Shown here piece after piece: positions 27,337-31,575 of a stretch of DNA of 64,000 bases. The position numbers and the translations under genes were made by a program. The stretch lies in contig NZ_JAFY01000002.1 in NCBI RefSeq assembly GCF_000526375.1, forward strand, positions 434,001 through 498,000, read 5' to 3'. Below the pieces are notes generated by a model that saw nothing but the letters and a program-made list of their open reading frames with translations, was not told the origin of the DNA and did no database searches. Each line of letters starts with the position of its first letter. Position 1 is the stretch's first letter. This DNA is from Aminiphilus circumscriptus DSM 16581. Its GTDB lineage: Bacteria; Synergistota; Synergistia; Synergistales; Aminiphilaceae.

Positions 27337-28902
27337 TCATGACTCCAGAGACAACAGCAGAGGAAGGACAAACAGTAGAAGTACCGGCGAAGCGAACCCG
27401 GCGGAACATCCACCGCCTCCCGACCCCGAAGGATTTTCAGGCGTGGGTTCGACCGTCGGCGTGGTGACCGTCACACGGTCTCTGTTCACCGCCACGGAGA
27501 CCAGAGAAAACTCCGTCGTGATGGTTCCACGGAGCCCTTCCTCGTCCAGGGAGGCGTTGTCCTCCACAGTGTAGCGAAAATTTTCCTCGATGACCCAGGA
27601 CGCGCCCTCTTCGGCGACAAGCGGGGAGAAGGGGCCTTTTCCCTTCTCCGAGGGAAGAAGCAGAGAAAAGCCGTTCATCGCCCGGGTCGTCGTGTCGAAG
27701 GTGGACACGGCGAGAAAAACGCCGCGGGCGATGGTCTCTTCGCTCGGCTCCCGCTGAATGTCCATGGAGACGAAGAGCGGACCGGTCATCATGTCGGCAC
27801 TGACGAGAATCGCCGGGGCGACGAGGAGAGACGCGTTGGCCCCGTTGATGTCCGGAACCCCGAGCCACGCGGCGATGAGCTCCCTTGCCCGCGCACCGTC
27901 CCCGCCCCATGCGGCGGCATCAAAGGCACCATCCCCGCCACCGCCGTTCAGGATGGCGTCCTCCACGTTCCACGCCCTCTGAAGTCCCAAAGGATCGTCG
28001 GAAATGGAGCGGACGATGTAGTGTCCGGCTCCTCCCACGAAGGCACCAACGAGACCCGGACTGAAGGGCGGTGGGGGCGACGGTGCGACCCCCGTGGGGG
28101 ACGGACGGGGAACCTCCGTGGGAAGAGGCTCCTCCGGAGGACGGGGAGGAAGCGTCGGTTCGGGAGAGAGAGTCGGCCTCGGCGTCACGAAAGGCTCCGG
28201 CGTCGGTGTTACCGGGGTGGTCGGCACGGGCGTCGCGGTGGGCCTCGGCGTCGGGGACGGAGACAGAGTCGGTTCCGGCGTGGGAGCCCGCGTCGGGGTG
28301 GGGGTAGCGCAGGAGCGGACCGCCGTGAACGTGGGAACCTGCAACTCCTCATTGCCGAGGGAGACGGTCCGGATCGCCGGGGTGTATTCACAGAAAACAG
28401 AGGGAAGAACGAGAATCCGATAGGTCGCTCCTCCCTCGAGATCCTTCGAGTAGACACCGTTGCCATCGGTGGCGACGGTGTGAAGAAGGGTCACGCCGTC
28501 GCCGCTCAGAATCCTCACGTCCACGCCCTTCACACAGGCCTCGCAAGCAGCCGCCACGTCGCCACTGACGGTCCACACCAAAACAAGGAGAAGCGTCGTC
28601 TCCTTCTGGATTTCGTAGTCCGAGAGCGTTTTTTCGTTCTCCAACTCCACGCCATCGAAAAAGAGACGCTGTCTCTCCGGCACATAGCCTTTCTTATCCT
28701 GGATCTTCGCCTTCACACTCTCAATGGAGTCTCCCGCCTCCACTTCAAGCGTGATCGTGCCTTCTGCGCCCTTTTCCTTCACGAAGATCTGCATCGCCTG
28801 GGCCGCGGATCCGAACACGGCGAAAAGAGCCGCCGCGAGAAGCACCGCGAAAAAGGTGCGGCGACAGGACCGATGTCCCCGCCGACGGAGGTCGGAAAAC
28901 AT
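27337..28902 (-). CDS. Secreted protein with N-terminal ubiquitin domain and Synergist-CTERM anchor
   Basis: A 521-residue protein in clear modules. Residues 1-36 are a signal peptide (two-arginine-rich n-region, cleavage expected after SAAQA). Residues 37-109 are a ubiquitin fold starting MQIFVK, with [18 protein letters not shown] and TLSDY/IQKE; by eye 47 of 72 positions match eukaryotic ubiquitin. It lacks the terminal RLRGG and instead runs into a Cna/CarboxypepD-like beta domain (about 110-190), a Pro/Thr-rich linker (200-279), an unassigned domain (280-490) and a C-terminal Gly-rich GGGGCSAGF plus hydrophobic tail of the Synergist-CTERM sorting type. ATG 28902 follows AGGAG. It lies 12 nt after the lipoprotein gene. 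The protein is probably displayed at the cell surface; function unknown. Confidence 0.92.
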
Positions 28903-28913
28903 CGCAACATCTC

Positions 28914-31469
28914 CTAGAAATCATAGAGCCGGAAGGTCCACCGCTGGGGAGCGTCCTTCTCGGTCCCGTTGGTGTAGAGCGTCTTTCCGTTTTCCGCCTC
29001 CCGCAGATAGTCGTGATCCTTCGTCTTGATGAAAACGTGGATGCCCTCCCGGGGGTAAGCCGGTTCCTTGGTTTCGGTGTAGAAATCCACGAAACGGGAC
29101 ATGATCACCGGCACGGGCTCGAGCGTTGCCGTATCGACGACCCTGGCGTAATTGCATTTGTTTTTGTACGAGGGAAACTGAAGTTCTCCGCTGTGGCTCT
29201 TCAGAGAAAGAAGATCTCCGTAACGGACGAAGGTCTTCGTGGCATCCACGGCTTTATATCGGACGAGCCCGTGTCGTTCCGCGCCGCCGTCTTTCCGCCA
29301 TCCGCCCAGGCAGGAGACATAATATCCTTCGCCTTTCAAATATTCCCAATTCGTTGCCTTGATGCCGTACTCGGCGACCGGTTCGTCCTTTTTCTCGGGC
29401 GTCGTGGCGAGCAGTGGGGCACCTCCGGCCTCGTCGGGCACCCCATTGCGAAGAAGAGCGGCGTCGGGAAGCCAGGCGAAGAGCGGGACCGTGGCGTAGG
29501 GCTTCTCTTCCGTCAGCGTGAGCCAGATGGTCGGCACTTTCGCATCGTAGCTGAAAGTGCTGTTGAGGAGTTTCTTGCCCACCGCTCCGGGAACAGGGGG
29601 TTCGTTGTCCCCGAGGTTGAAACGGCGGACCTCGCTTTCACCGGCGACGAGGGTGAAGCGGGTCTGCAGCGGCATGTCCCGGAAGATGTACCGGAGCACC
29701 ACCGCCCTGGTGGGGCTCTTTCCGGGATCCTGCCAGGCAACGACGTTCACCGTGCCGTTATAGCCTCCTATCGGTGCTGATATGTCGCTTTCATTCACCC
29801 TCAGATAGAGGGGCAGCGCGGTGCCCTTGTTGCCGTCTTTCTTCGCCTCCAGGTCGCGCATACGATCCTTCATGAAGGTGAAAAAGACATTGTAATCCTT
29901 CGGTCTGGAGCCCCTCCAGTAATAGGTATCCGCCACCAGGGAATCCCAAAGGAGGCGCACCACCACCTGCGACGACGCTCCCACCGCGTCTCCGACATGA
30001 TCGTCGAAGGTGAAGTAGGGCGATCCTCCCGCGTCGTGCGGCATGTCACTTCCCCGATGATAATCCATGGTGCATCCTCCCCGGGGAAGGAAGACACCCA
30101 TCATCTCCACGCCGTCGAGGAAGATCTCCGACTGGGCGGCGATCCGGTCGGTGTGCTTCGCCTGCCACCGCAGCACGTTGTTCTTGACGTCCTCCGGGTC
30201 CTGAAAAAGATGATAGTGTTCGGTGATGAGGATCAATCCCTTGCTCTGGATGCCCACGAGGAACAAATAGGTCTGGAGATAGGTGTCGAGGGCGTCCTCG
30301 ATAGAGGTCTTTCCTCCCCTGACCTGGTCCAGCAGATACGTCGCCAGCTTGGTGTAGAAGCTGGTTCCCACCAGAGGGGCGGTCAATTTCTCGTTGATCA
30401 GGTCGAGCCCGAGTTCCACGTCGAGGGTCTTGGCGTCGATGGCCTCCGCCTCCTTCTTGGATCTTTCGCGGTCCTTGTTTTTTGGAAGCGGCATCAAGTT
30501 GTCGTCATAAAGGGTCCGGATCAGCGAAATGGAGGAGAGCATGGTGTTGTAGTCGGCCTCCACCTGCATCTGCCGCAGCAGATCCGTCATGGCCTTCTCG
30601 AAGTCGATCAGGTTCTTGCTGATGAAGGTCATCTTCTCCGAGAGCATGTCCAGCTCGGACTGAATGTCCTTCGTCGGGTCACCGAAGATGAGTTTCTCCA
30701 CCCAGCCGAGCCCCTCGCCGGTGGCCCAGCCCACCGCTCCGGCACCGATCTCATTCAGCAGCCACTTGAAGATCTTGCTTCCCGCACCCTGAACGGAGCC
30801 GGGAAAGGGGTGAGTCCCTCCCGCCTCGGCCTCGTCGATAAGGGTGTCCAGAAAGGCGTCGAAGGAAAGCCCCGAGTCGACCCAGGCCCAGCCGAAGAGC
30901 GAAAAGGAGAAATTGTTGCGATCCGACGCGCCCGGAACGAGCCGGGAGGGAGAGGCGCTGTATTTCAGCTCCAGGAACGTTCCGATGGCTTCCTCCGCCT
31001 CGGCGAGGGTCTTTCCCGTGCGAATCGCGTAGCGGGCGACCAGCGACGAGAGGGGCGTCACCCGCACCAGCGCGTCGCGTTCCTCCACCAGCGCATAGAG
31101 TGAGGAGGGTGCCGGAAGGGGTGCCTGTCCCGAAAGCGTCGAACTGGAGGTGTCCCTCGTGGTGATGTCCGTCACCACCGCGAGAAAGGGCGAGGGGAGA
31201 ATCTCTCCGGGGGAGATCGCGAAGGAGCCCGTGGTGTGCACGTCATCCGAGAGGTCGAAAAGAACATCGCCGGAGAGGGTCTGCAACGTCACTCTTCCCG
31301 CGGTGACGTCATCGCTGAACGTATAGGTCAGGCCACGCACCACCGGCGGGGGAGCATCGTCGTCTCCGCCGCATCCTCCGAGCAGGAGAGAGCTTCCGAC
31401 CAGCAACAACAGGAACAGTGGAAAGAGCGCCTTGAAAGAGCGATTCATCCGTGATGGGTTCCTCTCCAT
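28914..31469 (-). CDS. Large lipoprotein of unknown function
   Basis: An 851-residue exported lipoprotein: hydrophobic signal (12-31) and lipobox LLGGC with Cys33, followed by GGDDD. An N-terminal beta-rich region (about 45-130) precedes a mostly helical centre (about 140-430), which contains a hydrophobic stretch ([16 protein letters not shown]) and long amphipathic helices, and a C-terminal part (about 690-851) with GDLLSLKSH and [10 protein letters not shown] patterns reminiscent of a beta-trefoil. I do not recognise the family. The helical-plus-beta layout is reminiscent of pore-forming toxins, but this is only an impression. ATG 31469 has GGGGAG at 8 nt; ATG 31448 would also give a good signal peptide. 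It is the first gene of an operon with the ubiquitin-domain gene. Confidence 0.8.
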
Positions 31470-31575
31470 GAAAAACACTCCCCTCGTTTTTTCTCCGCCC
31501 CGAAGGATTTCCTCCCGTTCCCGTCGGACCTGCGGAGAGATGGGTCATTTTTTTCTTTGTTTCTCGTCGAAAAGA

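Follow-up and report, generated by a model that had tools for sequence, protein, structure and literature searches.

What does a ubiquitin domain do at the mature N terminus of a bacterial protein predicted to be exported? The question is raised by an ORF of 521 aa that starts with ATG and occupies 27337..28902 on the minus strand of the 64,000-nucleotide stretch of the Aminiphilus circumscriptus DSM 16581 genome analyzed here (the window); the other parts of the window described below are on the minus strand too. A first-pass annotation of this DNA had proposed a signal peptide followed directly by ubiquitin, and both parts of that proposal held. In the leader, residues 1-36 (28795..28902), a basic n-region precedes a hydrophobic core (mean 2.87), and positions -3 and -1 hold small residues. 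The AQA motif ends at residue 36 rather than far from it, placing ubiquitin Met1 directly after the predicted cleavage site (AQA/MQIFVK). A Shine-Dalgarno-like GGAG (28911..28914) lies 8 nt 5' of the ATG, in overlap with the stop codon of an upstream lipoprotein gene; translation of a bare ubiquitin from Met37 is disfavored, since this GGAG precedes the upstream ATG and residues 1-36 make a good signal peptide. Export by the Tat route, hinted at by the residues CRRTFF, was rejected because TatC was not found in the window genome, whereas 11 of 14 control genomes gave a match. From the presence of a signal peptide together with the missing TatC match we infer export via Sec. Contamination was also rejected: the contig is 1.36 Mb long and has the pst operon next to the gene, and an ortholog of identical architecture, with the same lipoprotein gene upstream, is present in the genus-mate UBA5560.

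The head that follows the leader (residues 37-108; 28579..28794) is a true ubiquitin domain. Pfam assigns residues 39-108 to ubiquitin PF00240 at E=1.6e-18 and 66.6 bits (cut-off 25.4), by a wide margin the best Pfam family for the head, and residues 36-108 score about 68 bits per domain against polyubiquitin chains of the PDB. Pairwise alignment gives 47/71 identities to human ubiquitin, in agreement with the 47 previously counted by eye, versus 25/70 to NEDD8; yeast and plant sequences were also included in the identity comparison. NEDD8 or another UBL was rejected on these figures, as was a generic bacterial beta-grasp family, the head being far nearer to ubiquitin than to NEDD8 and PF00240 clearly its best match. 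The AlphaFold model of the head has the strand-helix order of ubiquitin, mostly at pLDDT 70-90, and Foldseek aligns it with solved ubiquitins at TM 0.95-0.98 over the target, rmsd 0.5-0.8 Å and 60-64% identity. It is the only match in the window genome, which has no stand-alone form.

Core and surface of the head differ sharply in their resemblance to human ubiquitin: the core, as generally known from the ubiquitin structure, is identical at 19/19 positions, and the surface at only 27/51. Lys6, 27, 29, 33 and 63 are retained, the last four as the first-pass annotation had noted, and Lys11 is lost. Its placing of a Glu at position 48 was a misreading, for this residue is Val and the Glu stands at 49; its Ile44-to-Phe replacement is correct and belongs to a wider change in which three of the four Ile44 patch residues (L8, I44, H68, V70) are replaced, reading K, F, L, V in the window head. 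By its sequence the head cannot be conjugated, as had been proposed, because the C-terminal diglycine is absent and the domain is embedded in a chain that runs on into a longer protein. A search of the window genome for UQ_con gave 0 matches, and the control genomes likewise gave 0.

The remainder of the chain comprises a beta-rich region with four Cys (residues 109-200; 28303..28578), whose SdrD_B-like Pfam match is weak (E=0.029, below the cut-off), an 80-residue Pro/Thr/Ser stalk (residues 201-280; 28063..28302), a C-terminal domain of ~215 residues (residues 281-495; 27418..28062) and a Synergist-type C-terminal sorting/anchor tail (27340..27417). The AlphaFold model outside the ubiquitin head, in the beta region and the C-terminal domain, is too poor to interpret. 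The tail, GGGGCSAG followed by a transmembrane stretch, resembles those of many Synergistota proteins and lacks the terminal Arg/Lys cluster usual among them, and NCBIfam models gave 0 significant matches to it. The earlier description of a beta domain, a stalk and a Synergist-CTERM anchor survives as to a stalked, membrane-anchored protein, with a tail that is like those of its phylum relatives except for the missing basic end. A protein from another family of the same order of Synergistota (L060) has a related C-terminal domain (34% identity, E=7.4e-17; phmmer E=8.9e-21), a Pro/Thr stalk and a GCSA-TM tail in common with the window protein, but its N-terminal head is not ubiquitin and it has a cluster of terminal Arg. 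Since the same stalk and anchor carry another head in L060, the head is modular, the ubiquitin being an interchangeable part of a Synergistota chassis.

The upstream lipoprotein gene (28914..31478, ~845 aa) lies 11 nt from the ubiquitin-head gene, and the two are probably in the same operon. Its product has a long helical middle and is 95% identical in the genus-mate; no relative beyond the genus-mate was found among 181 genomes of the order, no known family was matched, and the structure model (pLDDT 29) is too poor to read. The intergenic spacer from the lipoprotein stop to the ubiquitin gene (28903-28913) exceeds that of the genus-mate by ~8 nt, and the GGAG comes from these additional bases. 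Both genes share one frame in the genus-mate, with a single TAG between them.

Comparison with other bacteria places the window protein in a cross-phylum class rather than marking it as a one-genome oddity. The junction of signal peptide and Met1 of ubiquitin recurs in four phyla (Synergistota, Bacillota, Bacteroidota, Pseudomonadota). It is exact in 22 head-type proteins, whose leaders stop immediately before Met1 and of which 21 have Ala or Ser at -1, and further cases of the junction occur on viral contigs. PF00240 matches above the cut-off were obtained in 3/188 Synergistota genomes, 10/350 genomes of the order of Saccharibacillus, 4/395 of the order of Colwellia (two being exported heads), 6/395 of the phylum of Psychroflexus and 4/299 of the phylum of Saccharibacillus (two being clear exported heads), and a Ruminococcus albus plasmid (L024) and two Pseudoalteromonas megaplasmids came from protein searches. 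Exported heads thus occur in roughly 0.5-3% of sampled species in several bacterial groups, and their carriers include marine, rumen and sediment bacteria. Like the window protein, those of Saccharibacillus (L006), Colwellia (L007), Psychroflexus (L008), R. albus (L024) and another Synergistota genome (L041), and the autotransporters L043 and L044, combine a signal peptide, Met1 and surface or secretion modules, but their bodies and anchors are different and many keep the Ile44 patch that the window head has not. The anchors match the lineages (SLH, autotransporter, the T9SS tail Por_Secre_tail, OmpA), with the Synergist tail in L041 and the window protein and an IPTL-like tail in L081-L083; other bodies consist of tandem-95/cadherin repeats or of Listeria-Bacteroides repeats with leucine-rich repeats. 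The diglycine is absent in all tethered heads examined, the Ile44 patch is complete in about half of 20 aligned heads, and in 10 of these 20 at least 40 of 51 surface residues are kept. In the open-access literature searched we found no description of bacterial ubiquitin heads that are tethered or anchored at the surface; annotations of the kind 'ubiquitin family protein' already exist in databases.

Several other arrangements were seen. An IMG/VR contig (L078:3001-3213) encodes an exported ubiquitin behind a signal peptide with an intact LRLRGG, which may represent an early stage of the exported class. A tandem pair of free, BfUbb-like exported ubiquitins occurs in one Bacteroidota genome (L048:6893-7814), and another genome (G200) has three divergent exported ubiquitins (L049:6739-7101, L022:1357-1713, L023:1330-1713), in which a spacer separates the leader from ubiquitin and the ends read LVIR, LVLRI and LVLKL. 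Ubiquitin-like proteins with no evident signal peptide and with LVLR before the stop occur in two genomes of the Colwellia order (L028:1504-1806, L029:1504-1806), and in L056:6246-6449 and L057:6783-6995 the ubiquitin domain lies inside large BspA-LRR/SLH surface proteins, not at the tip.

Within these proteins the head is usually the best-conserved part, as far as ortholog pairs indicate. Between the window protein and its UBA5560 ortholog 71/72 head residues are the same, with six synonymous codon changes and one non-synonymous, compared with four and eight, respectively, in the beta region; the low non-synonymous count of the head is weakly significant (Fisher p=0.03 against leader, beta region, stalk and tail, 0.13 against the whole remainder). 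Head and body are 94% versus about 80% and 89% versus about 70% conserved in SLH orthologs from Paenibacillales, and 86% versus 45% in an autotransporter pair. The exceptions are L006, whose head has diverged while its body is conserved, and L056 and L057 with their internal ubiquitin domains.

As to origin, the evidence supports an ultimately eukaryotic source of the window head, most likely through lateral acquisition. In the tree the bacterial heads radiate star-like around eukaryotic ubiquitin, and AU tests gave p=0.107 for all bacterial heads together and 0.173 for the Synergistota heads together, so that with only 72 residues one capture followed by spread is not separable from several captures. 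Of the earlier suggestion of acquisition from a eukaryotic host the eukaryotic origin stands and the host is not supported, given the unresolved, star-like tree and the varied habitats of the carriers. The heads of the R. albus plasmid and the Synergistota protein L041 pair at 94/88, a pairing that points to exchange between phyla. With L006-L008 the window head forms a cluster at 87/92, a grouping that owes something to ascertainment, since peptides of the window protein had served to retrieve those three loci. GC at codon position 3 is 71% in the head and 73% in the rest of the gene, and this likeness indicates that the transfer was not recent. Phage records searched for a vector gave 0 matches, and nothing firm was obtained for a phage vector from IMG/VR, where the matches were some eukaryotic-virus-like polyubiquitins and others bacterial-type exported heads.

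How such a protein might work can be outlined as follows. A eukaryotic-type ubiquitin would have been acquired laterally, with a signal peptide placed exactly before Met1, and would have come to form the tip of a surface protein with a Synergistota stalk and anchor. After export, presumably by Sec, and leader cleavage between AQA and Met1, the GGGCS-TM tail would hold the protein at the cell envelope with the folded ubiquitin facing outward on the beta region and the Pro/Thr stalk, where it would act as a non-covalent, non-conjugating binding tip. Its most likely partner would be a surface or envelope protein of neighboring microbes, met on contact or after shedding, as with the free BfUbb of Bacteroides fragilis. 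Export, display at the surface and the kind of partner are inferences, and we regard an exported, non-conjugating binding tip aimed at neighboring microbes, by analogy with BfUbb, as somewhat probable; such a tip may kill, adhere or recognize. In favor of this reading are the ubiquitin identity of the head, its intact core, the recurrent junction, the anchors matched to each lineage, the other head of L060, the usual conservation of the head and the BfUbb precedent. Against it count the weak significance of the codon changes, the exceptions L006 and L056/L057, the free rather than tethered state of BfUbb, the lack of a recognizable immunity or shedding element and the missing basic end of the tail.

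A stronger form of the same reading is that proteolysis at the stalk sheds the head, which would then be toxic to related strains in the manner of BfUbb. The precedent is mature BfUbb, the product of ubb, a secreted protein of 76 residues that antagonizes sibling strains (PMC5705921), and the window protein has the Pro/Thr stalk that shedding would use; free exported ubiquitins, such as the tandem pair of L048, exist elsewhere. We nevertheless think this version unlikely for the window protein, whose genome has no stand-alone form (one match), whose head surface differs much from ubiquitin and at whose locus no immunity gene, shedding element or cleavage motif was recognized. Alternatively, the target of the head could be eukaryotic, either protists or an animal host, and the head a mimic or decoy for ubiquitin-binding proteins or enzymes or a mask for the cell. 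The eukaryotic origin of the domain, the complete Ile44 patch in about half of the aligned heads, the intact LRLRGG of L078 and the binding of recombinant BfUbb to human E1 (PMC3352274) are in its favor. However, the window head has no diglycine, eukaryotic ubiquitin receptors are intracellular while the window protein is tethered outside, and the marine, rumen and sediment carriers share no common animal host; we therefore hold an address to eukaryotes to be rather doubtful. The receptor decoy that the first-pass annotation had put forward fares poorly here, since replacement of the patch (L8K, I44F, H68L) over an intact core makes a decoy for ordinary ubiquitin receptors unlikely in the window protein, and possible only for those heads that keep the patch.

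A third view needs no partner at all: ubiquitin would be a stable, fast-folding N-terminal cap or spacer for which any fold would do. A kept core beneath a drifted surface (19/19 versus 27/51) is consistent with this, as are the very different bodies to which heads are joined and a chassis that works with another head in L060. Yet half of the aligned heads keep their surface too, and a head that is usually better conserved than its body would be unneeded in a mere cap, so that we consider this explanation quite improbable. The binding tip aimed at neighboring microbes remains our preferred reading. Extended to the whole class, it would describe a recurrent bacterial surface-weapon or recognition system in which captured eukaryotic ubiquitin, fitted in at least four phyla with each lineage's own anchors, serves contact-dependent recognition or antagonism and of which BfUbb is the free form; we offer this only tentatively, as a possibility. 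The sibling-antagonism work on BfUbb has reportedly been extended by Jiang et al. (Nat. Microbiol. 2024). Exported heads are now a testable class rather than a curiosity: they raise the question of how often bacteria captured ubiquitin and offer natural non-conjugating ubiquitin variants whose evolution would have been toward binding an extracellular partner.

Set beside known systems, the window protein is closest in its junction to BfUbb, which has a signal peptide, a mature start aligned to Met1 and no terminal glycine (PMC5705921); both have an exact junction of signal peptide and Met1, both lack the diglycine, and their identity to human ubiquitin is similar (63% for BfUbb (PMC3352274) versus 47/71). 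They differ in that BfUbb is a free toxin of 76 residues, whereas the window head tops a stalked, anchored protein of 485 residues in its mature form. With eukaryotic ubiquitin (PF00240) the window head shares family, fold, core and Lys6, 27, 29, 33 and 63, but it is without the diglycine, Lys48 and an intact Ile44 patch and, unlike its eukaryotic counterpart, is predicted to be exported.
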